DNA from: Planctomycetota bacterium
Lineage (GTDB): Bacteria > Planctomycetota > UBA8742 > UBA2392
Direction: 5' to 3'
Length of the DNA stretch: 64,000 nucleotides
Assembly (NCBI GenBank): GCA_022071975.1
Contig: JAJVIO010000060.1
Span: forward strand, 31,882-95,881
Program-made: the position numbers and the translations under genes
The notes under the pieces: generated by a model
The model's input: only the letters and a program-made list of their open reading frames with translations
The model's database searches: none
Told to the model about the DNA's origin: nothing
Part shown: one piece after another, positions 1 through 20,731 of the stretch
Numbering within the stretch: the first letter of the stretch is position 1
Layout of the letters: each line of letters begins with the position of its first letter

Positions 1-3
1 CGC

Positions 4-540
4 TTACTCCCCATGGCGCTTCCTCCGCCAGCGCACACACAGCCAGCCCTTAAGAAACACAAGCCGTGCGATCGTGTAGCCGAACTCCAGCGCCATAGAG
101 GCGGCCAGAATCTGGGCTAGAACCGCAAGGGTGAACGACAGCCTGGAGTCTGTTGCAGCAAACCAGATCGCCAGTGCAGCGAAGCCAGCCCAGAATCCGC
201 TGTACGCAATCAGACGAACACGTAGATCCGACAACGACCACTGAGGGTCCCCGCTGGGGTGGCAGACCACCTCTTCGCCATCAAGGAATGACGAGATCGG
301 CAGGTCCGGAATCGTCTCCGCCTTGCTCAGCTCGTAGAAGTACTCCGTGTGCAGGTCCAAGATGTGGTCGCCCGCGGCATGCTTCCTCGACTCGACCACC
401 AGGTCGCCGTCTCGCGCGGCTCGAATTTCCGAACCTTCGAGATCCTGCTGCATCTCCCACTCGCAGTCGCGGCACTTGCAGGTCAGCCTGGTGCGCAGGT
501 GCTTTGCGCTCACGCTGCTCATGATCTGCTTCAGCTCCAT
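4..540 (-). CDS. hypothetical protein with CxC/C cysteines and predicted C-terminal transmembrane segments
   Basis: In-frame Met at 540 (MELKQIMSSVSAKHLRTRLTCKCRDCEWEM...); abuts the upstream minus-strand ORF; hydrophobic C-terminal half. Confidence 0.6.
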   Translation of the reverse strand: MELKQIMSSVSAKHLRTRLTCKCRDCEWEMQQDLEGSEIRAARDGDLVVESRKHAAGDHILDLHTEYFYELSKAETIPDLPISSFLDGEEVVCHPSGDPQWSLSDLRVRLIAYSGFWAGFAALAIWFAATDSRLSFTLAVLAQILAASMALEFGYTIARLVFLKGWLCVRWRRKRHGE

Positions 541-1262
541 CACTTCCTCCCGATCGTGACGCGCATGCCCGGCCGCCACCACAGCGGCTTGCGGGGAAGC
601 AGGATCTCCGTTCCCCGGTAGAACTTGCTCAACTGGTCGACCGCTTCGCCCGTGTAGTCGTTCTGGGCCTGGGCCCAGGTGCGTGTGCGCGCCGGCCGCG
701 ATGCCAGCGGCTGCACGCCGGCGGCGTACTCGCCGCGCAGGCGCTTGGGCCCCTGGTCGGCGTCCTCCTGGGCGGTCTGCTTCGGGTCGTGCGGGTAGCC
801 GTCCATGCCCAGGGCGACGATGCGGGTGAAGTCGTATTTCTCGAGCAGCACCCACAGCATCAGCACGCCGCTGGTGATCCAGGGCGAACGCGGGCGCCCG
901 TATGCCGTGCGCGGCAGGGTGACGTCGTGGTGCAGGTGGTGGAGCGCCGCCGGGCCGAACTGGAAGTCGACCGGCCGGGCGGTGTTCCGGCAGGGCTGGA
1001 CCTTGCTCGCGTTCGAGATCTCGAGGAAGCGCTCCAGGGCGCCCGGTCGCATGAACACCTGCGTGCCCTGTCCCAGCAGCGTGGTGATGGTGTCGGCGTA
1101 GGCCTCCGCCGCGGCGCACTCGCCCACCAGGTAGAAGTCGGGCGGATAGTCCGCCTTGCGCAGCAGAGCCACACTGCCGTTCACACAGGCGACCTTCGCG
1201 TCGCGCGGGATTTTGACGCCGGCGGCGCTGGGGCCGCTGCAGATGAGCCAGCATTCCTTCAA
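540..1262 (-). CDS. phage-type Rossmann-like protein (MptE/DUF115-like motif CSGPSA...VNGS)
   Basis: LKECWLICSGPSAAGVKIPRDAKVACVNGS...; probable TTG start overlapping the upstream TGA, preceded by GGGAGG. Confidence 0.5.
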   Translation of the reverse strand: MKECWLICSGPSAAGVKIPRDAKVACVNGSVALLRKADYPPDFYLVGECAAAEAYADTITTLLGQGTQVFMRPGALERFLEISNASKVQPCRNTARPVDFQFGPAALHHLHHDVTLPRTAYGRPRSPWITSGVLMLWVLLEKYDFTRIVALGMDGYPHDPKQTAQEDADQGPKRLRGEYAAGVQPLASRPARTRTWAQAQNDYTGEAVDQLSKFYRGTEILLPRKPLWWRPGMRVTIGRK

Positions 1263-1798
1263 AACAGCCTCCCTTGCGCCTGTTGCTGTTCGCGCTCGAG
1301 GCGGCGTTTGCGCTCGGCCTCGGTCTCGACCTCTTCGGGCGGCTTGCCGATCGCGCCGCTCCGCATGCTTTCCGGCTTCTCGGGCGCGGGGCCCTTCATG
1401 CCGCCGTCTCGCCAACGCCGCAGTTCCGCGTAGTAGCGCGCCGCGTCGTTGGTCGATGGATTGCCCTTGAAGGTTGCTCCCATGCGAGCCATGTCTGCCT
1501 CCGTGAGCACCGGCGCCTCGCCGGTCTCGTCCAGGGGGATGTTGATGCCGTCGGCGATCGCGGCGCGGATGCTCTCCCACACCAGCTGCCACACGGAGCC
1601 CTGCAGGCGCGGGAAACCGTGCACCCGTGCGTACAGGGCGCGCTGGCGGCCCTTGTTTTTCAGGGGCTTGTTCACGGCGAACACGTCGTAGTTGCCCACC
1701 TGGCGACCGCCTGTGCCGTCGTTGGCGATCATCAGCAGGCCCATCAGCTCGCGCTCGCGGCTGGTCGCTTTCAGGAAGTCGATCTGCACGATGATCAT
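1259..1798 (-). CDS. hypothetical phage-like protein
   Basis: 179-aa ORF MIIVQIDFLKATSRERELMGLL..., overlaps its neighbours by a few bases as in an operon. Confidence 0.6.
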   Translation of the reverse strand: MIIVQIDFLKATSRERELMGLLMIANDGTGGRQVGNYDVFAVNKPLKNKGRQRALYARVHGFPRLQGSVWQLVWESIRAAIADGINIPLDETGEAPVLTEADMARMGATFKGNPSTNDAARYYAELRRWRDGGMKGPAPEKPESMRSGAIGKPPEEVETEAERKRRLEREQQQAQGRLF

Positions 1799-2022
1799 GC
1801 GACGAACAGCTCCCTGGCCAGTTGATCCGCCTCTGCGTTGGTTTTGGCACCGCGCCGGCGCTTCGGCCCGGTCAGGCGCCCGCGCTTGCGAGCCATGTAC
1901 AGGCAGCTGTTCACGCGGCCCAGGCTGACGCCCACCGTGGCGGCGATCTGCTTGTAGGGCACGCCCGCCTCATAGAGCGTGCAGATCCGCTCGTTCTTGC
2001 TCAGCGCCATTTGGTCTCCCAT
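1795..2022 (-). CDS. small helix-turn-helix protein
   Basis: ALSKNERICTLYEAGVPYKQIAATVGVSLGRVNSCLYMARKRG resembles an HTH (GcrA/resolvase-like) segment. Confidence 0.55.
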   Translation of the reverse strand: MGDQMALSKNERICTLYEAGVPYKQIAATVGVSLGRVNSCLYMARKRGRLTGPKRRRGAKTNAEADQLARELFVA

Positions 2023-2026
2023 TCGC

Positions 2027-2302
2027 CTAGCTGATGTGCGGTTCGTTCTTGCCTTCCACGCCCTGCTGTGTGCGCAGCTCGGTGCGGCGCTTCAGCCACA
2101 ACAGCGCCTCCTCAAGCTTGGTGATGGCCAGGGCGTTCTCGCGGCACGGGAAGCGTAACTGCAAGCCGCGCAGGCGGTGCAGCAGCACGTCCTCGATGAT
2201 CTCTTCGTTCTGGCAGCCGTTCCTGCCGACTTCGCCGACCGGGCCGTCCTGGAAGTGGATCTCGTAGTCGTCGGTCCTGTAGTGGTGGATGTCTTCGCTC
2301 AC
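2027..2302 (-). CDS. small phage protein, candidate Acb2/Tad1-hairpin-like family
   Basis: 91 aa; motif FPCRENALAITKLEEALLWLKRRTELRTQQGVEGK recalls widespread phage Acb2-like proteins; family call from memory only. Confidence 0.5.
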   Translation of the reverse strand: MSEDIHHYRTDDYEIHFQDGPVGEVGRNGCQNEEIIEDVLLHRLRGLQLRFPCRENALAITKLEEALLWLKRRTELRTQQGVEGKNEPHIS

Positions 2303-3096
2303 GTTCGTTCTCCTTTGGCTAGCGGCGTGTTTTTCAGCAGTGCGGCCACCTGCTGCAGGTTCTCCCTGCCCGTCATGCCGCGCGGGTTGTTCGGGTCTTG
2401 GATCGCGATCGTCTCGACCACCGCGGCTGCTCGGTGGTTCTGCACGCAGTTTTCCAGCAGGCTGTGTAGCTCGGGCTGGTCGTCGCCCAGGCTGACCGTG
2501 CCGTCGCGGGTCACCTTCACGCTGCAGGCGCCGTCGGCGAGTTTCACGGCCAGGGTGAAAGCGCCGAGCTGGTCGGAGTACTTCTGGATCACCCGGTCCG
2601 TGAACTCGCGCTCCAGCAGCTTGAAGCTTGCGCTGGTCAGCAGCTCGTCCTTGTGGGCGAGGAAGTCCTCGATGCGCACGGCCTTCACGTCGTGCAGCTG
2701 GTAGGAGCTGCGCAGGGTTTCCAGGATCCCGACCAGGTCGAGCTCAATGGGCACCAGCTCGACCCAGATCTTCGCCGCGTCCAGGGCGGCCGCCAGCACG
2801 CCCACGTCCCCCTTGCGCCCCTGCACGCCGACCAGGCCGCGCGAGCGGATCAGGCGGAAGTCGAAAACCTCGTTGACCTCCACGCTGCGCTTCTCTGGCT
2901 CCCAGCTTTCGGGGTTGACCGTGGTGATCTCCTGCAGGTGGCGGTGCAGCAGCTTGCCGTAGACGCGACCGGGCGCGTACTGGCGCCCGCGCCAGCGGAA
3001 GGCCTCAGGCGCGAGCCACTGGTCCCATTGCAGGCGCGCGATCGCGTCCCAGGACAGGCCGCCGCACAGGAAGTCTCTGTAGTGCCAGGTGATCAA
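2299..3096 (-). CDS. uncharacterised protein, homologous to the host-side ORF at 17176-17913
   Basis: TTG start overlapping the upstream TGA; shares ...RI.D.LA...L..ASFK.L.R...D.I..K.SDQL.AFTL..KL.DGAC...VTR.GTV...DD.PE... with 17176-17913. Confidence 0.65.
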   Translation of the reverse strand: MITWHYRDFLCGGLSWDAIARLQWDQWLAPEAFRWRGRQYAPGRVYGKLLHRHLQEITTVNPESWEPEKRSVEVNEVFDFRLIRSRGLVGVQGRKGDVGVLAAALDAAKIWVELVPIELDLVGILETLRSSYQLHDVKAVRIEDFLAHKDELLTSASFKLLEREFTDRVIQKYSDQLGAFTLAVKLADGACSVKVTRDGTVSLGDDQPELHSLLENCVQNHRAAAVVETIAIQDPNNPRGMTGRENLQQVAALLKNTPLAKGERT

Positions 3097-3452
3097 TTCG
3101 CCTCCAGCCTTTTCTTCTCCATGGCGTGACGCATGGCCTCGATGCGCTGGATCTGGGTGGGGCCGTTGGCCGGTGAAGTGAAGAAGCCCAGGAAGGTGAA
3201 TTCGCCCGCCTCGTCTTGCTCCCAGTGCCAGGTCAGGTTTGAGGCCGGGCCCTCGATCCACTCGATGCGCAGGAACACTCCATTGTGCACCGGGTGGGGC
3301 AGCACGGCGAAGCGCAGGCCGCACTTGCCATCCGTGGCTTCTCCGAACACGTCGGAAGGCCAGCCATCACCCGCTTGAGCGCGGGCGTGCTCGACGATTC
3401 CGCGCAGAGCTTCCTTGGTGATCAGGACCTTGAGTGTGTTGCTGTCGCTCAT
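3093..3452 (-). CDS. hypothetical protein
   Basis: 119-aa ORF MSDSNTLKVLITKEALRGIVEHARAQ..., operon-like overlaps. Confidence 0.6.
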   Translation of the reverse strand: MSDSNTLKVLITKEALRGIVEHARAQAGDGWPSDVFGEATDGKCGLRFAVLPHPVHNGVFLRIEWIEGPASNLTWHWEQDEAGEFTFLGFFTSPANGPTQIQRIEAMRHAMEKKRLEAN

Positions 3453-4297
3453 GCCCGCTCCTTCTCAACCTCGAGCATGGCGCGGTTGAGCTCGACCATC
3501 AGGAACAGCAGGGCGCAGTCGTCGCGCAGGTCGGCGTCGGCCTGGATGTCGCGCAGGATCTCGTCCTTGTCCGCCAGCACTCCCAGGTGCCAGGTTGCGC
3601 CCATGCCGCGGCCGTGGTGGTTGGCGATCTGCACCCGCTCGTCGCGCGGGATGTCGCCGCATTTAGCAGCCAGCTCGTCGCGCTTCGCGAAGGGCAGCGC
3701 GTTGACCATGAAGCGCAGGCCGGTTTCGCTCTGCCCTTCCGCCTGCGCGCAAGCGCTGCACAAGGTCTGGGTCGCGTCCACCCAGTGGCAGGGTTTGCCG
3801 GTCTTCTCCACGCACTGCCGGCAGTCGAGCTCCGTGCATCCGCATACCTGGCAGACGCCGCGGATCGTGCCGGTGCGGGCGTATTCTTCCGCGGCGTCGG
3901 CGAGGGCGACGATCACCTTCTCACCAGCCTTGCGGTACCACTCGCTGTAGGTCCCTAAAGCTTCTTTCCGCGCGGCCTCGACCTCGGCCATTTGGGGCAG
4001 TTCTTCAAGGTCGCCGGCGTCGCCGACTTTGGGATCCGCCGGCTCGTAGGTCTGCTCGAAGATGTCTGGCTTGCAGGGGTAGAACTCGCCCTTTACGCCC
4101 TTGATGATCCAGTCGTTGGGAAGGGCGCGCATGGTCCCCTCGAGCGTGGCAACCGACAGGGTGCGCACGTCGCTCGCCCACACCGGGTACGCCGACGGCG
4201 CCCTCTCGCGCTTCGCCCAGGCGATCAGCTCTTCGGCGTTGTCTCCGGTGAACTGGCGCGCCTCGACCACGACCGGCCTTTTGCGGAAATGTCCCAT
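3449..4297 (-). CDS. phage PGDYG-like protein fused to a CxxCG zinc-binding-like segment
   Basis: MGHFRKRPVVVEARQFTGDN...DWIIKGVKGEFYPCKPDIFEQTYEP then VCQVCGCTELDCRQCVEKTGKPCHWVD...LCSAC, both typical phage motifs. Confidence 0.65.
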   Translation of the reverse strand: MGHFRKRPVVVEARQFTGDNAEELIAWAKRERAPSAYPVWASDVRTLSVATLEGTMRALPNDWIIKGVKGEFYPCKPDIFEQTYEPADPKVGDAGDLEELPQMAEVEAARKEALGTYSEWYRKAGEKVIVALADAAEEYARTGTIRGVCQVCGCTELDCRQCVEKTGKPCHWVDATQTLCSACAQAEGQSETGLRFMVNALPFAKRDELAAKCGDIPRDERVQIANHHGRGMGATWHLGVLADKDEILRDIQADADLRDDCALLFLMVELNRAMLEVEKERA

Positions 4298-4299
4298 GG

Positions 4300-4584
4300 C
4301 TATCCTTTCGTGTGCTGGTTCAGTTTGAGGACCTGGGCCGCGGCGGCCTCGGCCGCGTGGTGGACGTGCTGGGGTTTGACGCGGCAAGCCCAGTGGTCCG
4401 ACAGGAACAGGTCCCCGTTCCCGCGGATCCCGGTCACCTTCACGGGTCCCTGCACTGCCCAGTGAGCGCCCGCGTTCAGCGCGTAGAAGACGCGATCGCC
4501 GACTTTGAACTTCGAGCGTTTGCCGCGAGTTGCCACGGTGGCGTTCAGCAGCCCCGGCGTCTGTGTGTTGATCAGAGTGGTCAT
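4300..4584 (-). CDS. hypothetical small protein
   Basis: MTTLINTQTPGLLNATVATRGKRSKFKVGDRVFYALNAGAHW... Confidence 0.5.
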   Translation of the reverse strand: MTTLINTQTPGLLNATVATRGKRSKFKVGDRVFYALNAGAHWAVQGPVKVTGIRGNGDLFLSDHWACRVKPQHVHHAAEAAAAQVLKLNQHTKG

Positions 4585-4661
4585 GGTTGGCCTTTCGTGT
4601 GCTTTGCTCTCCACATCGGGGCGGCCGCGGCGGGGAGAGCGCCGCCGCGGCCGCGTGCCGA

Positions 4662-5087
4662 TCACTCTGCGAGCTGTCCGCCAACGAGCGCGCAGAGCTG
4701 CATGCAGGCCAGGCTGTGGTCGTTGCCCAGCAGCAGCAGGCCGTTGTGCCCGGCGTTCAGGCCGTCGCACAGGGTGGTCTGGGGGCCGCGGCGCGCCTCC
4801 GCCACCGCCGGCGCCGGGAAGGTGTCGAGCTCCAGCTCGACGGCCTGGCCCTTGGCCGGCTTCTTCGTGACGGGGGAGTTGATCGCCGACGCCAGGTCGG
4901 CGTACTTGATCACCGCCGTCTTGCCGCCGGCGAAGACCACGAACTCCTGGGCCTCGTCGTCGCGGTACAGGCCCTTCACGCCCGAGCCGCGCGTCTCGCT
5001 GTTGCAGACGTGCTCGCGGGCGTGCTCCTTCAGCTTCTTGACCTCGGACCAGGGGATCCAGGTCGTAACCGGTGCTGCCATGTCCAT
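4662..5087 (-). CDS. hypothetical protein, paralogous to 5128-5574
   Basis: MDMAAPVTTWIPWSEVKKL...; shares layout and motifs with the next ORF. Confidence 0.55.
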   Translation of the reverse strand: MDMAAPVTTWIPWSEVKKLKEHAREHVCNSETRGSGVKGLYRDDEAQEFVVFAGGKTAVIKYADLASAINSPVTKKPAKGQAVELELDTFPAPAVAEARRGPQTTLCDGLNAGHNGLLLLGNDHSLACMQLCALVGGQLAE

Positions 5088-5127
5088 CTCCTTGCTTCGT
5101 GGTTGCGGCGGAGCCGCTTCAATTCAG

Positions 5128-5574
5128 TTAGCGCAGCAGGCGCGTCGCCACGGCGTTGAGCAGCGCCTGCAACGCGATGCTGCAGTCGATGCCGCCGGGG
5201 CTGCCGAGCAGCGCGTCCCTGCTCAGGCGCAGGCCCTCGCAGACGCGGTCGCTCGGGGGGAGATCGCCTTCCTCGTGCGTCAGCCGTTTCACCTGCACGG
5301 CGCGGCCGTGGGGGTGCTCCTGGCCGGCCAGAGCCTTGACCAACTCCTTGAAGGTCACGCTGGCGTGGCGCTGCTCGCCGATGAACAGCAGGGCCTGCGC
5401 ATCCGGGTCAAGCAGCATGCGCACGACTCCGTTGCCGCCGGTGTCCGCGCGTCTCAGCTCGCGCAGCTTGCCGGCGGGGACCTCGTGCAGCTTGCTCCAG
5501 TGCACCCAGGTCAGGCGGCCGCTGGATGCCGGCGGGTTCTTTTTTGCCGGCGGCTTAGCCTTGGTCTTGGACAT
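5128..5574 (-). CDS. hypothetical protein, paralogous to 4662-5087
   Basis: MSKTKAKPPAKKNPPASSGRLTWVHWSKLHEVPAGKL...CEGLRLSRDALL. Confidence 0.55.
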   Translation of the reverse strand: MSKTKAKPPAKKNPPASSGRLTWVHWSKLHEVPAGKLRELRRADTGGNGVVRMLLDPDAQALLFIGEQRHASVTFKELVKALAGQEHPHGRAVQVKRLTHEEGDLPPSDRVCEGLRLSRDALLGSPGGIDCSIALQALLNAVATRLLR

Positions 5575-5893
5575 TCGTGTCTCCTTGGTTCTGTTGCGGC
5601 GCGGCGCCGCGGTCGTCGAACGGACTGGCGGCTCGCTGCACCAACTCTTCCAGCTCCGGCGCCGGCGCCCACTCGCCGCACCAGTTCTCGGGGCGCATCA
5701 GGGGACGCACAGGCGCCAAGCTCGACTTCGCGCCGGGCGCGATCACGGCAGGGCCCGTGGCCACCAGCTGGGGCGGGTAGCGCCGGCACTCGAAGTTGCC
5801 GCCCTCGTCGGGCACGGCGAAACGGCAGAACATGCAGGTCTGCAGGCAGGCGGGATCCCGCCGGATCAGCTCAATCAGCTCGGCTTCGTTCAT
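5555..5893 (-). CDS. small cysteine-containing protein
   Basis: MNEAELIELIRRDPACLQTCMFCRFAVPDEGGNFECRRYPPQ, Cys pattern CxxxCxFC...C. Confidence 0.55.
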   Translation of the reverse strand: MNEAELIELIRRDPACLQTCMFCRFAVPDEGGNFECRRYPPQLVATGPAVIAPGAKSSLAPVRPLMRPENWCGEWAPAPELEELVQRAASPFDDRGAAPQQNQGDTNVQDQG

Positions 5894-7269
5894 GCGATCG
5901 CACTCCTGACGGCGCTGCGTTGCACGAAGCGCGCGCTGGTCTTGTGGAAGTACATGGGGACGCCGCCCGTGGGGCCGTTGCGGTTCTTCTCGAGCAGGAA
6001 GGAGTACTCGAGTACTTCGAGCTCGTCCTTTTCCTTGTCCGGTGTGGTGCGGTGCAGCAGCAGCACCTGGTCGGCGTCCTGCTCGATGGATCCCGACTCG
6101 CGCAGGTCGGATAGTTTGGGACGGCCTTCGCTGCGGTGTTCGACGCCGCGGTTCAACTGCGCGGCCGTGATCACGGGGATATCCAGCTCGCGCGCCATGG
6201 CCTTGAGGCCGCGGCTGATGTTGCCGATCTGCAGGTGGCGATCGAGCGCATTGTCGTCCGGTACCAGCTGCAGGTAGTCCAGCAGAATCGCCTTCAACTT
6301 GTGTTTGCGCGCGACGCCGCGGGCGATGCTGCGCACCGCCGGCAGTCTCAACTCGCCGTTGTCGACGATGTAGGCGGCCGGCCGGATCAGGTTGGTCGCC
6401 TGCAGCACGGCGCCGCGTTCGTCGTAGTCGAGTTTTCCCAGCCGGTAGTTGCGCTGGTCGACGCCTGCGACCTGGCAGATCACCCGCTGGGCCAGCTCGA
6501 CGGTGCCCATCTCGTAGCTGAAGATCAGCACCGTCTCGCCGGCCTGGGCGGCGTTGACCAGGAAGTGGCTGGCCATGCCGAGCAGGCAGGCGGTCTTGCC
6601 CTGGCTGGGGCGCGCGCCCACCACGATCAGCTCGCCGCCGCGGAAACCCAGCGTGAGCTGGTCCAGGTCAGACCAACCGGAGCTGAGGCCGGGCAGCGCC
6701 CCCTCGTTCGCGCGGCGCCACTCTTCCACCTGCTCGCGCTGCGACTCGGCCGCGGCGACCGCTTCGTCGATCGGCACCAGCTGCGCGTGCTGGCGTGACT
6801 GGTCCAGGCGCGTTAGTTCGCGCTCCAACAGATCGACGGCGTCGCCGGCGGGATCCTGCCGCGCGCCGTCCAGTGCCACCGCCCGCGCGTCGCCGGCGAC
6901 CAGCACCAGCTCGCGCCGGCGCCATTCGCGCTGGATGATCGCGGCCCAGCGCTGGACGCCGTAGCTGCTGGGGACGCTGTTGCTGATGTCCGCCAGGTAG
7001 GTCTGCAGGGCGTCGCGCCCGCCGCAGGCCTCCAGCTCGTGGTTGTGCTCGACGGCGTCGGCGCAGGTGATCCAGTCAAGCTCCAGGTCGTTGTCGTGCA
7101 GCTGCAGGATCGCGCGGTAGATCACCTGGTGCGAGTGGCGCCAGAACATGGCGGGATCCGGCAACGCCAGGCGCACGGCGTCGATGCACGAGGGATCGAC
7201 GAACATGCAGCCCAGGACCGCCTGCTCGGCCTCGATCGAGTGCGGAGGGATGTAGCCGGCGTCAGGCAA
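5890..7269 (-). CDS. dnaB: replicative DNA helicase, DnaB family (element-encoded)
   Basis: IPPHSIEAEQAVLGCMF, GELIVVGARPSQGKT Walker A, LDYLQL, ELDIPVITAAQLNRGVE...R.SDLRESGSIEQDADQVLLLHR. Confidence 0.93.
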   Translation of the reverse strand: MPDAGYIPPHSIEAEQAVLGCMFVDPSCIDAVRLALPDPAMFWRHSHQVIYRAILQLHDNDLELDWITCADAVEHNHELEACGGRDALQTYLADISNSVPSSYGVQRWAAIIQREWRRRELVLVAGDARAVALDGARQDPAGDAVDLLERELTRLDQSRQHAQLVPIDEAVAAAESQREQVEEWRRANEGALPGLSSGWSDLDQLTLGFRGGELIVVGARPSQGKTACLLGMASHFLVNAAQAGETVLIFSYEMGTVELAQRVICQVAGVDQRNYRLGKLDYDERGAVLQATNLIRPAAYIVDNGELRLPAVRSIARGVARKHKLKAILLDYLQLVPDDNALDRHLQIGNISRGLKAMARELDIPVITAAQLNRGVEHRSEGRPKLSDLRESGSIEQDADQVLLLHRTTPDKEKDELEVLEYSFLLEKNRNGPTGGVPMYFHKTSARFVQRSAVRSAIA

Positions 7270-7636
7270 CTTTCGACTCCTGCAGCGCGGCCGCCGTCAG
7301 TTCCTTGTTGCTCTTGAGCTGGCGGCGCTTCGCCTCGATGCGTTCCTGCAGGCCGTACAGGCCCAGGGCGCTGAGGTAGCTGTAGCGCCCGTCGGCGATG
7401 GCCTGCTTGGCTGCGCGCATGCAGCGCGCGAACTCGGAAGAGTCCGTGCCGGAGTTGCGGTCGCTGAACTCGACGGCGAACTCCCGCACGGCGTCGACGT
7501 TGTCGAGCAGCTCGTCGAGGCAGGCCCAGGCGAAGGCCAGCAGCTCGACCAGTTCAGCTTCGCTCAGTTTGCGATCGGGATTGAGTGACGCTTGCAGCTC
7601 CGCGCGGCGCTGCGCTTCTTCGGAGTATGGGTTCAT
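7262..7636 (-). CDS. hypothetical protein
   Basis: MNPYSEEAQRRAELQASLNPDRKLSEAELVELLAFAWACL... Confidence 0.5.
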   Translation of the reverse strand: MNPYSEEAQRRAELQASLNPDRKLSEAELVELLAFAWACLDELLDNVDAVREFAVEFSDRNSGTDSSEFARCMRAAKQAIADGRYSYLSALGLYGLQERIEAKRRQLKSNKELTAAALQESKVA

Positions 7637-7830
7637 CTCGGCTCCTTCACTTCCGCGGTGGTGTCGACAACGCGGGACTCGTCCTCAACCCGGCGCTTGA
7701 GCGCCTCGGCTGCTTCGACCAGGGCGGCGCGAAACTCGGGGTGCGCCGCCGCGGCCATGACGATGCCCCCGGCGATGATGGTGAGGGCCGTGAACAGCTC
7801 GCGCTTCGAGAGAGCGTTGCGTCGCTTCAT
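7633..7830 (-). CDS. small membrane protein
   Basis: MKRRNALSKRELFTALTIIAGGIVMAAAAHPEFRAALVEAAEAL, single hydrophobic segment; overlaps neighbours. Confidence 0.45.
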   Translation of the reverse strand: MKRRNALSKRELFTALTIIAGGIVMAAAAHPEFRAALVEAAEALKRRVEDESRVVDTTAEVKEPR

Positions 7831-8576
7831 GACTGCCTCGGCTTGTAGGGGACCGGCCCGCCGGCGGCGCCGTCGTCGTCGAGTGGGAAGTCCGGCGGCA
7901 GAGGAAGTTGCCCTCCCGCGCTGGGGTGATCCGATAGACGGTCCAGCAGATTCTCGCGCTGGCCCTCGTTGAGCGAGGCAAGCACCTCCAACAGGTCTGG
8001 GTTCTGGCTCAGCAGGGGGCGGTTGAACCAGTTGCCCCCGCTGGGCAGCATTCCGAGCAACGCATCCCTGGTTGCCTGCGAAGCATGGCACCAGCGCGCC
8101 CACTGGCGCTGGAAGCCAACTCGTTCCGTGATCGGAGTGCCTTCGAGCGACGTGTTGCCACCCAGGAGCGGCCCCATGGCGCACAGGACCTTCGCAAGGT
8201 CGGCGAAGAGGCCCGTCGGCTCTGACTTGGTCGCATCGTTCTGTTCGACGCGTTTCAGCAGACGCTGGTAGAAGTCGTACAGGCGGCTGATGTCCCGCGT
8301 GTTGAGCGCGCACTCTTCTGCACTAGCCTTGTCGTCGAGTCGCTTCCTGATGACTTCGCAAGCGCTGCTGATCTGCTTGACGAGATCCTCGTAATCATCG
8401 GCGCGCAGGCGGGCGGTCTTCTTCTGCCGCGCCTCCAGGCGCTGCACGCGGGCTTGCAGGCGACCGATCACCGCGCCGACCAGCAGGCAGCCGCCGAACA
8501 CGAACCACTGTTGCGGCGTGATGGCGCACAGGCGCTCCCACACCAGAAGCACGAACTGCTCGAAGTCGTGAGTCAT
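7827..8576 (-). CDS. membrane-anchored coiled-coil protein
   Basis: MTHDFEQFVLLVWERLCAITPQQWFVFGGCLLVGAVIGRLQARVQRLEARQ... Confidence 0.5.
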   Translation of the reverse strand: MTHDFEQFVLLVWERLCAITPQQWFVFGGCLLVGAVIGRLQARVQRLEARQKKTARLRADDYEDLVKQISSACEVIRKRLDDKASAEECALNTRDISRLYDFYQRLLKRVEQNDATKSEPTGLFADLAKVLCAMGPLLGGNTSLEGTPITERVGFQRQWARWCHASQATRDALLGMLPSGGNWFNRPLLSQNPDLLEVLASLNEGQRENLLDRLSDHPSAGGQLPLPPDFPLDDDGAAGGPVPYKPRQS

Positions 8577-9058
8577 GACAGCACAGCCTTTCTGGCCGCT
8601 TCGCGGCCCCTTGCGAGACGGGACATCACCGTGCCGATCGGGATCCCGACCAGCTCGGCGATTTCGCGGTACTCGAAGCCCTGCAGCAGGAAGTCGAGGG
8701 CTTCGCGGTAGATGGGTGGAACCTTGGCCATGATCCGGCGGCGCAGATCCTCGGCGTGGACCTGGTCCAGCGTGGAGGCCTGGCGCGCGTGGGCCGGCAC
8801 TTCCTCCTGCAGCTGCTCCGTGCGGCCGCGCAGGCGCCGCTGCGCTCGCAGCCAGCTCAGTGCCGTCCAGCGCACCTGCTGGCTCAGCCAGCCGGGCAGG
8901 TTCTCGTCGTCGCGCAGGTTGCCCAGCATGTTGCGGGCGTTGATGAAGGCCTGGTGCACGATGTCGCCGGCGCCGTCGCGTGAGAATCGCGCGGCCAGGC
9001 GAACCAGGCTCGGGTAGTGCTCGGTGAAGACGGCGTCCAGTTGTTCGGTGGAGATCAT
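8573..9058 (-). CDS. ECF-type RNA polymerase sigma factor
   Basis: MISTEQLDAVFTEHYPSLVRLAARFSRDGAGDIVHQAFINARNML...region 4 IPPIYREALDFLLQGFEYREIAELVGIPIGTVMSRLARGREAARKA. Confidence 0.8.
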   Translation of the reverse strand: MISTEQLDAVFTEHYPSLVRLAARFSRDGAGDIVHQAFINARNMLGNLRDDENLPGWLSQQVRWTALSWLRAQRRLRGRTEQLQEEVPAHARQASTLDQVHAEDLRRRIMAKVPPIYREALDFLLQGFEYREIAELVGIPIGTVMSRLARGREAARKAVLS

Positions 9059-9522
9059 GGGATGTAGGCCTCCCGCTCTTTGCGCGCGCGCTCGGCCGAG
9101 GCCTGCGCCGCGATCTTTTCCCGTTCCTTCGCGTACTCGATGAAGGCGTCTCCGCGCATGGGCGGCTCGAACAGCTCGCGCAGGAGGGCAATCACGGCCT
9201 GGCCCGCGGCCGTGGGTTCGGCGCGGGTGATTTCCTCGCCGCCGGCGCCGGTGCTGGTGGCGACGCGCACCAGGCGCTTCTTCACCAACTCGGTGCTGTG
9301 CACGTTCCAGCGGTTGGCGAAGCGCAGCTTGCCCTGGACGCGGTCCCACTCGTCGGGGTGCAGCCAGGCCGCCAGCGCACGGCGCGCGTACTGCCAGGGG
9401 GCGCGGTGGCCGGACTTGTCGATCGAGATTTGCAGCCCGAGCAGCAACGCGCACTCGATCGTGCCGATCGCGAGGTTGCCGACCTGGATGGTCCTGCCGC
9501 TGATGCGCCGGGGGCGTTGCAT
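9055..9522 (-). CDS. hypothetical protein
   Basis: MQRPRRISGRTIQVGNLAIGTIECALLLGLQISIDKSGHRAPWQ..., overlaps neighbours. Confidence 0.5.
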   Translation of the reverse strand: MQRPRRISGRTIQVGNLAIGTIECALLLGLQISIDKSGHRAPWQYARRALAAWLHPDEWDRVQGKLRFANRWNVHSTELVKKRLVRVATSTGAGGEEITRAEPTAAGQAVIALLRELFEPPMRGDAFIEYAKEREKIAAQASAERARKEREAYIP

Positions 9523-9845
9523 CAGGCGCCTCCCTTCTCGGGACCGGCGGCACGCCGGCGCAGCAGCTTGACGATGCCGCGCTTGTTGGGCTGGCTGAAG
9601 AAGTACTTGTGCGAGAGCCCTGCCGGGGCCGGCGTGCGTTTCTCGTGCTGGTCGATCAGCTCGCCGGTCTTGGTGTCCAGGCGAAGACCGCTGTCTTCGA
9701 GCTTGCGGTCGTCGCGCTCGATGCGCTTGCGCTCGACCACCTTGTGGCTGCAGCCGGTGCAGAGATAACCGCCCCGGACCACCCGGCGCTTTTCGCAGCG
9801 CGGGCAGACGGGGCGAAGGAAGTAGATGCGCGAGGTGCGGTCCAC
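9522..9845 (-). CDS. zinc-ribbon protein
   Basis: CPRCEKRRVVRGGYLCTGCSHKVVERKR: CxxC...CxxC. Confidence 0.55.
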   Translation of the reverse strand: MDRTSRIYFLRPVCPRCEKRRVVRGGYLCTGCSHKVVERKRIERDDRKLEDSGLRLDTKTGELIDQHEKRTPAPAGLSHKYFFSQPNKRGIVKLLRRRAAGPEKGGA

Positions 9846-10114
9846 TAGGAGATCGCCTCCTGCACGCGACGGCGCAACTGCTGCAGGCGGTCGCTCAGGA
9901 GCTCGGCCTGGCGCACCCAGCGGTTCAGCTCGGTGGCGCAGTTTTCGAGGTGGTTGCGCTGGCTTACGGGAAGGACGGTGACGACGTTTCCGTTCACACT
10001 GTCCAGCAGCTGCAGCATCCCGTCGAGGGGGCTGTCAGGCTGGTGGATGACGAAACGGCCATGCTGGACGGCTGCGCCCGGAGCGGTAGCATCCGGCGCT
10101 TGCTGAGTAGTCAC
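9845..10114 (-). CDS. hypothetical protein, first gene of the element operon
   Basis: Probable GTG start (VTTQQAPDATAPG...) with AAGGAGAG upstream, inside a hairpin. Confidence 0.45.
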   Translation of the reverse strand: MTTQQAPDATAPGAAVQHGRFVIHQPDSPLDGMLQLLDSVNGNVVTVLPVSQRNHLENCATELNRWVRQAELLSDRLQQLRRRVQEAIS

Positions 10115-10166
10115 GGGGCGACTCTCCTTCCTGCGGAAGGCTGGAGAGTCGCCCATGACTAAAAGA

Positions 10167-10243
10167 TGGTACCCCTAACGGGATTCGAACCCGTGTCTGA
10201 GCCTTGAGAGGGCTCCGTCCTAGGCCGGCTAGACGATAGGGGC
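10167..10243 (-). tRNA. tRNA-Glu(CUC)
   Basis: Minus-strand GCCCCTATCGTCTAGCCGGCCTAGGACGGAGCCCTCTCAAGGCTCAGACACGGGTTCGAATCCCGTTAGGGGTACCA folds as a cloverleaf: anticodon loop CTCTCAA (CTC), TTCGAAT T-loop, encoded CCA. Confidence 0.95.
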
Positions 10244-16866: not shown

Positions 16867-17016
16867 TGGTAGCCGGGGGCGTAAGCCCCCGGTTTTTGTG
16901 GCGGCGTTGGTGCGCGCCCGAAGGGCCGCCTAAAGAGTGCGATGTACGCTTTAGGCGGCCCTTCGGGCGCCGGTTATGACGTGTCTTCAACCCGGGGGCT
17001 TACGCCCCCGGCTACC
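16867..17016. repeat. long imperfect inverted repeat
   Basis: Arms ggtagccgggggcgtaagcccccggtttt / aacccgggggcttacgcccccggctacc plus gcgcccgaagggccgcctaaag / ctttaggcggcccttcgggcgcc, centred near 16941. Confidence 0.8.
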
Positions 17017-17170
17017 CTCGGCGGCCCTTCGGGCGCCGCTTTCAATGTGTCTTCAATCCGGGAGCTTACGCCCCAAGCTACCTTCGGCGGCCCTTCGGGC
17101 GCCGGTTATGACGTGTATTCAATCCGGGGGCTTGCGCCCACGGCTACCCGAGACGGGCCCTTCAGGCCGA
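16954..17170. repeat. 66-bp tandem repeat array, about 3.3 units
   Basis: GGCGGCCCTTCGGGCGCC at 16954, 17020, 17086; degenerate unit at about 17152. Confidence 0.85.
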
Positions 17171-17175
17171 GAGGC

Positions 17176-17913
17176 TTACTTCCGTTTGCGTTTGGCGGCT
17201 ACGGGGTCTACTACTTCGGCCGTGGCTACTTCGGCTTCGTGGAAGCGGGGCAGCAGGTCCTTGATCAGCAGCAGCAACTCGTCGGGCGCGTCGTCGCTGG
17301 CCCTTACGGTGCCCTTGCGGGTTACGGTGAGCGCGCAAGCGCCGTCGGGCAGCTTCAGCGTCAGCGTGAAAGCATCCAGCTGGTCGCTGAACTTCTCGGC
17401 GATCTTGTCACCCTCCTGCCGGTCCAGAATCTTGAAACTGGCGTTGGCCAGCATGTTCTCGCGCGCCAGGTAGTCCTTGATGCGCAGGGTCTTCACTTCG
17501 TTCTTCTTGTAAGCGCCCTGCACCTCGAACATCAGGTCGAGCAGGTTGATGTTCAAGTCCTCGAACTCCACGTTCGCGTCGGGAATGGCGTCGAGCGCTT
17601 CATACAGCGCGTTCAGCTCGCCGCGGCGCTGCTCGACCATTGCCAGCCCCTTCTGCTGGTCCAGCTCGAAGCGGCATTCCGCCAGGGATTCCGTGGCTTC
17701 TTCCGTCGGCTCCAGAGACTCCGGGTCGATGCGCACCAGCTTGCCCAGCTTGGTGTAGATGTAGCGGCCTTTCACGCGGTTCTGGTTGCTCTCCTTCGAC
17801 AGCAGGAAACCGCGCTGCATGCCGGGCTCGTAGGTCAACTGCGGCAGAGTTGCGCCAATGGCGCGGAAGCTCGGCTGGCCGCAGATCATCATCTTGTAGT
17901 GAAGGGCGCGCAT
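17176..17913 (-). CDS. uncharacterised protein, homologue of the element ORF 2299-3096
   Basis: MRALHYKMMICGQPSFRAIGATLPQ...IDPESLEP...KTLRIKDYLARENMLANASFKILDRQEGDKIAEKFSDQLDAFTLTLKLPDGACALTVTRKGTV. Confidence 0.75.
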   Translation of the reverse strand: MRALHYKMMICGQPSFRAIGATLPQLTYEPGMQRGFLLSKESNQNRVKGRYIYTKLGKLVRIDPESLEPTEEATESLAECRFELDQQKGLAMVEQRRGELNALYEALDAIPDANVEFEDLNINLLDLMFEVQGAYKKNEVKTLRIKDYLARENMLANASFKILDRQEGDKIAEKFSDQLDAFTLTLKLPDGACALTVTRKGTVRASDDAPDELLLLIKDLLPRFHEAEVATAEVVDPVAAKRKRK

Positions 17914-18112: not shown

Positions 18113-20731
18113 TTACTTCGCCGGTTTCAGGCGGCGCTTGATGTCTGCCCGCTGGGTTTCGGTGAGAGCCTTTGAGGCCGCCAGCTGTTCCAGCATGTTG
18201 CGGGCCTGGAACAGGCGGTCGCGCAGGGCGTCGAACAGGCCCTCGATTACCACGCGGCGCGCGTGCTCGATTTCCTTGTCGCTCTCGCCGATGCGCGCGC
18301 GCTGGGCGATGGCGCTCATGGTTTCCAGGATCTGGCGGCGCTCGGTGGGCTCGGGGCCGGGCTCTTCGTTCAGGCGCTTGGCCAGCTCGTTGAACACGCG
18401 CAGGGCGATCAGGTCCATGCGCTCGCTGGCCGGGCCGGCCAGCACCAGGCGGCTGATCACCTGCATCACCGGCAGCAGCACCAGCTTGCGGGTCAGCAGG
18501 TCCGTAATGTCCTCGGCCATGCGCGGCTTACAGCGTTCTCCCAGCGCGATGCCGCCCAGCAGGCGGGCCAGCGTCATGGTGGCCGCGGGCGCCCACACCC
18601 GCTTGTAGTCGGTGATCTCGGTCCACAGCTTGATCAGCTCTTCGGCGATGCGCTCGAACAGCACATCCGGCGTGGCCTTGGCCTCGATCATGCGGCCGAG
18701 CCCTTCCAGGATGCGCGGGATCATGTCCGTGTAGGCCGTGGTCTCGCGCCCGAAATGCAGCACGTCTTCGCCTTCTTCGTTCTTGCGCATGCGGCCGGAC
18801 ATGCTGGGCAGCCCGCGCTTGAGCACGCCCAGCAACTGGAAGCCGATCTCGAGGCGTTCTTCGCGCGACAGGTTCTCGCCGGCGGCCAGGTAGCCCAGGC
18901 CCTCCATGATGTCGTAGACGCTGCTGGTGCGGCCGATGCGTTCGCGCATGAGCGCCGCCAGTTCGTTGGCGCGCTCGGCGGGCATGTTGGGGTGGCCGCC
19001 GATGCGCCCCAGCGCGACGTACAGTGCGCCGCGGTCGGGGAAGTCGGTCTCCTCGGCGTCGGTGAGGCCGCGGATCGAGTCCATGATCTGCAGCAGCTCG
19101 GCGCTCGGCACGTCGGGCACGCGCGCCGCGATTTCCGGCATCAGGCGCGCGGCCGCCAGGCGCGTGACGTCGTAGGCAGACTCCAGCATGGCGAGGCGCA
19201 GGGGCTCGAGGGCGAAACGGCCGCAGCGCTCCAGGGCGGCGTGTACCAGCTCAAGCTGGCGCTCGAAACGGAACTCGTGCATGCCCTCGATGATCAGCTC
19301 GGCGGCCTTGACGCGGGCCTTGTCGTTGAGCGCCGGGTGGTCGAAGAAGCCGCTTTCCAGCAGCGCCGTGCAGACTTCGGGGCTGGCGTCGCCGTACAGG
19401 GCCAGCAGCGCGTTGGCGATGCGCGCGGCGCTGGCCTTCTTCATGGGGTACTCGGTGCTCTCGCCGCCGCGCAGCATGTGGCCCAGCAGGTCGATTACGC
19501 GTTCGCGCCCCGCGTCGTCGGCGGACTCCAGCGCCTGCAACAGCCCCGGCACGGCCTTTTCGCCCAGGCGGTTGAGGGCGGCGAGGCAGGCCTGGAAGTT
19601 GCGGTCGAGCTCGGAGCCATGTCGCATGCCCTCAATCAACTGGACGATCACGGCCGGGGCGGAGGCCGCAGCCAGGTCGTGCTCGGTGAGCAGGCTGAGT
19701 ATGAAGAAGCGCAGCTCCGGCTGGCTGACCTCGTCGATGCTGCCGACCAGCAGCTGCGACGTGCCGGCGCGGTCGGCCTGGAACAGGGTGGCGTAGACCT
19801 TGCGGGCGGCGTCCTCGTAAACCGTGAAGCGCACCTGCAGCAGCTCGATCAACTGCTTGTGCAGGCGCGGCGCGAGGTTGGCGAAGGACTCTCCGCCCGC
19901 GAGCTGTGTCGCCAACACGCCCAGCGCGCCCTGGACAATCTCTTTTGTTTCGGAGGCGGTCACGAATTCCACCAGCAGCCCGACGCCCAGCTGGCGCTGC
20001 GCGGGATCCAGCTTGCCGAGCACGCGGGCCAGGTTGCTGATCGCCACCACGCGCTCGTCCACGGCGCCGCGCGCGGCCTTGGCCAGGTTCTCGGTCAGCG
20101 CGGCCTCAAGCCCCAGGCCGCCGAGCGCGCGGGCGGCTTCGGCGCGCACGTCGGCTTCGCGGTCGCGCAGCGCGGCCAAAAACAGGCGCAGCTTCTCGTC
20201 GGGCGGCAACTCGGTGAGGTACAGCTTGCGCACGGCCTCGAGGCGGCGGCCTACTTCGGCGCTGGTGACCAGGTCGAGCTTGAGGCGCGAGATCTCGTCG
20301 TGGCTGAGCAGCTTGCGGGCCTCGTCGCGGTCGATCACCGAGGTAATGCGGCCCTCGGGCATCGCGGCAAGTGACTGCCCGGCCGGTGCGGTGGGGGAAG
20401 CGTCAACGTGTTCGGCTTCCTCAGCGAGGCAGAGTACGCGTGCACCGTTGACGCTGCGCAAGGCGACCGGGTTTTCCTCGAAGAACTCGGCGTCCTGCTT
20501 GGCGGCGAGCTTCTGCAGGGCGGCGTCGCTCAGCTTTTCGGCGCCGTCCAGCAGGGCCTTGGCCAGCAGCAGCTTGCTGAGGGGCTTGCCGTCGTCGTCG
20601 AGGGCGAACTCCAGCAGCGTCTCGCTGACATGCAGGCCCTTACGCGCCAACGCGCCCAGCCGCGTCGCCACACGGCGGGACGCGCCAAAGCTGTCTACCA
20701 GATTGTCGAAATCGTCCCGGATGATGCGCAC
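18113..20731 (-). CDS. large HEAT-repeat-like protein, 872 aa
   Basis: Repeated helical motifs, e.g. LRDREADVRAEAARALGGLGLEAALTENLAKAARGAVDERVVAISNLARVLGKL. Confidence 0.75.
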   Translation of the reverse strand: MRIIRDDFDNLVDSFGASRRVATRLGALARKGLHVSETLLEFALDDDGKPLSKLLLAKALLDGAEKLSDAALQKLAAKQDAEFFEENPVALRSVNGARVLCLAEEAEHVDASPTAPAGQSLAAMPEGRITSVIDRDEARKLLSHDEISRLKLDLVTSAEVGRRLEAVRKLYLTELPPDEKLRLFLAALRDREADVRAEAARALGGLGLEAALTENLAKAARGAVDERVVAISNLARVLGKLDPAQRQLGVGLLVEFVTASETKEIVQGALGVLATQLAGGESFANLAPRLHKQLIELLQVRFTVYEDAARKVYATLFQADRAGTSQLLVGSIDEVSQPELRFFILSLLTEHDLAAASAPAVIVQLIEGMRHGSELDRNFQACLAALNRLGEKAVPGLLQALESADDAGRERVIDLLGHMLRGGESTEYPMKKASAARIANALLALYGDASPEVCTALLESGFFDHPALNDKARVKAAELIIEGMHEFRFERQLELVHAALERCGRFALEPLRLAMLESAYDVTRLAAARLMPEIAARVPDVPSAELLQIMDSIRGLTDAEETDFPDRGALYVALGRIGGHPNMPAERANELAALMRERIGRTSSVYDIMEGLGYLAAGENLSREERLEIGFQLLGVLKRGLPSMSGRMRKNEEGEDVLHFGRETTAYTDMIPRILEGLGRMIEAKATPDVLFERIAEELIKLWTEITDYKRVWAPAATMTLARLLGGIALGERCKPRMAEDITDLLTRKLVLLPVMQVISRLVLAGPASERMDLIALRVFNELAKRLNEEPGPEPTERRQILETMSAIAQRARIGESDKEIEHARRVVIEGLFDALRDRLFQARNMLEQLAASKALTETQRADIKRRLKPAK

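Follow-up and report, generated by a model that had tools for sequence, protein, structure and literature searches.

RdgC has been described as a proteobacterial regulator of RecA (PMC11390915). It inhibits RecA, and cells come to depend on it more once replication restart through PriA/PriB is compromised (PMC9713433, PMC11077077). RdgC, RexA, Iml3 and Chl4 have one DNA-binding fold in common, and the RexA protein of phage lambda is a two-domain version of the RdgC type that lacks the tip; its DNA binding is non-specific, and it biases the lambda switch (PMC11077077). Phage-borne RdgC is already common, and the Pfam RdgC family (PF04381) occurs in other Planctomycetota.

The window, by which we mean the whole 64,000-nucleotide stretch of DNA analysed here, covers C8:31882-95881 of a planctomycete draft genome of 4.24 Mb. 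Two genes within it, one in a mobile element and the other in the host backbone, encode related proteins, the second with an adjoining gene on the same strand:

2299-3096, minus strand: element copy, predicted RdgC-fold protein, 265 aa, TTG start
17176-17913, minus strand: host copy, predicted RdgC-fold protein and core gene of the bacterial family, 245 aa, ATG start
18113-20731, minus strand: HEAT-repeat protein, 872 aa, adjoining the host copy

The two proteins are 35% identical over 209 aa (BLASTP, 133 bits, E = 2e-42), and their Smith-Waterman score of 335 compares with a maximum of 62 and a mean of 32 in 1,000 shuffles. In an alignment of 19 sequences the first methionine and the C-terminal V(E)T..(D)P block are both in register, and since the homology thus extends over the whole protein the TTG start at 3096 is credible. 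The initial annotation had proposed, from alignment by eye, that the pair is homologous along most of its length; this is borne out from N- to C-terminus, with every motif cited for the pair present. The outcomes it had named as fatal to the proposal, an alignment no better than shuffled sequences or differing folds, are contradicted by the scores above and by AlphaFold models in which the secondary-structure elements follow the same order in both proteins.

The host copy is found in all 16 genomes examined of the bacterial family, at 53-98% identity to that of the window. A second family of the order has it in one genome (31% identity), and it is absent elsewhere among the 392 Planctomycetota genomes searched. 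In each of the 15 family genomes whose gene neighbourhood was read, the same HEAT-repeat gene adjoins it on the same strand, the locus lying mostly between rpoD/dnaG and mfd, and dN/dS of about 0.04-0.19 between close relatives indicates purifying selection. The host copy is therefore an ordinary core gene and not, as had been suggested, a remnant that an older element left at 17-21 kb, a view with which its conserved synteny and purifying selection are at odds. The HEAT-repeat protein (18113-20731) is a possible functional partner; on the other side, just downstream of the host copy, lie three 66-bp tandem repeats (83% matches, window 16954-17149).

The element copy belongs to a 34-kb insertion bounded by the 17-bp direct repeats ATGGTACCCCTAACGGG at C8:8021-8037 and C8:42047-42063, with the 3' end of tRNA-Glu as insertion site and a gene for a tyrosine integrase adjoining the far repeat on its inner side. 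The final 10.2 kb of the element fall in the window (1-10182), where the element copy is accompanied by the following features:

2027-2302, minus strand: downstream gene, 91 aa, Acb2/Tad1 hairpin domain (PF24729, E = 1e-5; phrog_2428, E = 8.9e-25)
3093-3452, minus strand: upstream gene, 119 aa, no Pfam or PHROG match
5890-7269, minus strand: DnaB-type replicative helicase of the element (Pfam DnaB_C, 8.4e-75)
8573-9058, minus strand: sigma-70-family factor of the element, regions 2 and 4
10166-10182, no strand: attachment repeat ATGGTACCCCTAACGGG, one element end (second copy at C8:8021-8037, outside the window)
10167-10243, minus strand: tRNA-Glu(CTC), integration target

The element also encodes an O-like replication initiator, and two sigma-like proteins in total; no capsid or terminase was recognised among its scanned proteins. 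A module at about C8:15-28 kb has almost no PHROG match and may belong to an undescribed virus type. The TGA of the 119-aa upstream gene overlaps the TTG of the element copy, and the GTG of the Acb2/Tad1-type gene overlaps the TGA of the element copy, so that the three genes look translationally coupled. The 91-aa downstream protein, which scores 26 bits against PF24729 where the curated cut-off is 27, is a candidate cyclic-nucleotide sponge of the anti-CBASS/anti-Thoeris kind.

Additional copies of the gene occur in two elements only, the tRNA-Glu element of the window and a prophage unrelated to it. The latter belongs to another genome (G006), where contig C49 also encodes DNA methylases, a helicase and the terminase of a phage. 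A common backbone for the two elements was considered and rejected, the RdgC-fold gene being the sole gene they share. Identity between the element copy and the host copies tested is 32-36% throughout, against at least 53% between the host copies and that of the window, and a recent capture from the host was rejected on these identities; the broader suggestion of a captured gene could still hold as an ancient exchange in either direction, with which a tree uniting the window's element copy and its own host's copy, not rejected by the AU test (p = 0.315), is compatible. The two element copies tend to group, but only weakly (63/83 without the gut sequence described below, 90/93 with it), as all element branches are long.

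A distant member is found in a human-gut island (MT836957; L068), with matches to phrog_5850 at 7.6e-9 and to the family profile at 1.3e-9. It is the first gene of a three-gene cassette (RdgC-like, 309 aa, 363 aa; L068:7986-10661) among tyrosine recombinase genes, and the cassette is possibly an accessory or defence one. The PHROG family phrog_5850 is matched, at up to E = 1, by 18 of the 19 family members (best 4.6e-6); the window's element copy alone does not reach the model. Plasmid and phage collections gave no homologue of the element protein, and scans of viral contigs with both window proteins, the second element's protein and alignment A1 gave no annotated relative; once the gut protein is added, the alignment has no stretch of sufficient conservation to serve as a query. 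A weak PDB sequence match to an E2 glycoprotein fragment was taken as chance, as was a Pfam Resolvase match of one alignment member that was not reproduced in five members re-scanned. No annotated relative of the family emerged from the Pfam, PHROG, PADLOC, PDB sequence and viral-contig searches, so the initial view that the pair belongs to no described family stands as far as sequence searches go; at the level of fold it gives way to a likeness to RdgC.

AlphaFold monomer models of the host and element proteins (pLDDT 82 and 70, respectively) were compared with the PDB using Foldseek. The host model matches E. coli RdgC (2owl) first (E = 3e-6, probability 1.00), followed by 2owy, Iml3, CENP-L and TBP, and the element model likewise matches 2owl first (3e-5, probability 1.00), followed by CENP-L and Iml3, the TBP matches being weaker than those to Iml3 and CENP-L. 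The set corresponds to the proteins for which a common DNA-binding fold has been described (PMC11077077). As both models were built on one alignment, they are not independent tests. Foldseek recovers the fold of the RdgC centre and base domains from both models, and the TM-scores agree in part: against RdgC they are modest, at 0.38-0.49 and with a large rmsd (2owl, with normalisation by query, 0.45-0.49), as would be expected if the domain orientation differs, and sequence identity is 8-12%. Viral predicted structures gave 13 matches at E <= 0.001, four of which carry the name RdgC or a recombination-associated label.

The two-helix tip, or finger, of RdgC is missing from the model, in which strands 46-62 and 69-85 meet in a short turn with no inserted helices. 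This turn, which occupies the position of the tip helices in RdgC, bears the conserved (I/V)(D/N)PES.EP motif, and for this reason we call the family RdgC-fold rather than RdgC. Ring closure by RdgC uses the tip, a point against an RdgC-like reading of the present family, in which the tip appears to be missing.

A profile of the family and the gut member scores 25.9 against 12 RdgC proteins, where 100 column shuffles reach at most 24.0 (P about 0.01), and the alignment is collinear, pairing family residues 15-132 with RdgC 19-181 and placing a gap at the RdgC tip region. This sequence signal towards RdgC is weak when taken alone. RexA and RdgC, a published structural pair, score only 13.3 by the same method, so that low profile scores do not exclude a relation. 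PF04381 itself has no match up to E = 1 among the 19 family members and none in the window's genome; it is represented by proteins of other Planctomycetota families in 38 of 343 genomes (e.g. L092-L118), in 34 of 343 above the cut-off. These planctomycete proteins, which mostly match only the N-terminal half of the RdgC model, were considered as a missing link and set aside, since by profile they are no closer to the family (14.7, noise). In a genome from the same genus as that of the window, one full-length RdgC of 341 bits (L091, G001:C21:258-1133) lies where a contig begins and may be contamination or transfer. In favour of an RdgC-like protein, four residues, K7, R50, R96 and K161, are basic in all 19 members; against it, the host and element proteins are mildly acidic overall (pI 5.5 and 6.2, respectively), where a DNA-binding protein might be strongly basic. 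Taken together, the Foldseek matches and the collinear profile lead us to describe the family as a short, apparently tip-less RdgC-fold family, predicted to bind DNA.

On balance we think it probable that both genes belong to this family, that the host copy is an RdgC-like dsDNA binder limiting RecA, and that the element has its own diverged version; the element would then probably carry its own form of a host regulator of recombination or replication. Of the four possibilities initially raised for a protein shared between element and host, a modulator of a host process fits best, because an RdgC-like fold is predicted for both proteins. For another of the four, a decoy or immunity pair, PADLOC gave no family match above noise. 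Going by the fold, the family probably binds dsDNA non-specifically and in this way tunes replication restart or the recombination that depends on RecA. Because recA is present in the window's genome and PF04381 absent from it, and RdgC is a known RecA inhibitor, the role of the host copy would most likely be RdgC-like control of RecA at forks. What the analysis establishes is the homology, the conservation, the boundaries of the element, the overlaps between genes and the predicted fold; dimerisation, DNA binding, RecA modulation and a benefit to the element are what we infer. The host copy would act as a chromosomal, dimeric, non-specific dsDNA-binding protein that restricts the loading of RecA, or strand exchange, at stalled forks in the manner of proteobacterial RdgC. 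The element copy, which would be anciently diverged, appears to be translationally coupled to the candidate sponge and lies near the element's DnaB helicase and sigma factor; it may coat or clamp element DNA during replication or induction, or alternatively shift RecA activity in the element's favour during these stages. It is the predicted fold that suggests RecA modulation, and RexA has the same fold with a different role.

That role provides one alternative, in which the element copy would control a lysogenic switch as RexA does. Lambda RexA offers the precedent of a tip-less fold, non-specific DNA binding and a bias on the switch (PMC11077077), and the element is integrated and has sigma-like factors. 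We nevertheless regard this as unlikely: neither model has RexA in its top 50 PDB matches, the family profile scores against it at noise level (15.9, shuffle maximum 23.6), and the host retains a core copy outside any element. Nor was a RexB-like membrane protein or a CI/Cro pair recognised beside the element copy, whose neighbours, read without systematic membrane-segment prediction, are the 119-aa protein and the Acb2/Tad1-type protein. The match to RdgC could also be a superficial resemblance between alpha/beta sheets of the TBP or CENP-L kind, with an unrelated function of the family that does not involve DNA, and TM-scores below 0.5, the identity of 8-12% and the low profile-profile probability are what such a resemblance would give. 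RdgC, Iml3 and CENP-L are nonetheless the top matches of both models, and the profile, made from sequence without any structure, is collinear with RdgC and scores above 100 of 100 shuffles, so we consider a superficial likeness quite improbable.

The apparent translational coupling of the element copy to a sponge-like gene on its 3' side, together with the three-gene cassette that holds the distant homologue among recombinase genes in the gut mobile island, raises a further possibility, namely that the element copy belongs with the sponge to an operon directed against defence and acts on host defence (e.g. by protecting DNA ends) or on its paralogue in the host (e.g. through mixed dimers). The coupling is suggestive only, and the second planctomycete element copy has a helicase and a DNA methylase for neighbours in place of a sponge. 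With no other gene in common between the two elements and no PADLOC defence family matched above noise, we judge such interference quite unlikely as the function of the element copy. A more specific form, in which the element paralogue would pair with the host protein on DNA or displace it there, and the co-translated sponge would at the same time block defence signalled by nucleotides, a single operon thereby disabling both defence signalling and recombination surveillance, seems to us very doubtful.

The new finding is a short, apparently tip-less family that is core in this planctomycete lineage and present in two unrelated elements. This suggests that the use of the RdgC fold to control recombination predates the named families and extends beyond them, and that each of the elements, though unrelated in make-up, has retained an RdgC-fold version.

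Among known systems, the eukaryotic centromere proteins Iml3, CENP-L and CENP-N share the fold class and are the second-best structural matches of both models; no functional link to them is claimed. The 'RdgC histone' operon proteins of Bacillus and Halobacteria resemble the family in combining an RdgC fold with very low identity to RdgC, but have extra N- and C-terminal domains and are encoded beside a histone and a membrane protein (PMC11390915). Lambda RexA and the RexA-like exclusion proteins share the general fold without the RdgC tip, are phage-borne and, in the case of RexA, bind DNA non-specifically (PMC11077077); they differ in showing no profile similarity, in not being among the best structural matches and in the RexB partner, which was not seen here, whereas the present family has a host core copy. 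RdgC itself (PF04381; E. coli, PDB 2OWL) is the top structural match of both proteins and has weak collinear profile similarity in the central domain, and like the family it is present both in chromosomes and in many phages (a relative in 430 of 50,697 phage records). It is longer (about 303 aa, against 245-265 aa), its tip helices are apparently swapped in the family for a short hairpin turn bearing (I/V)(D/N)PES.EP, and every member of the family, found here in a planctomycete family, falls below the Pfam RdgC model. The unannotated phage family phrog_5850 is part of the same broad family as the RdgC-fold proteins described here, and with this a phage family without an assigned function gains a testable fold and activity.
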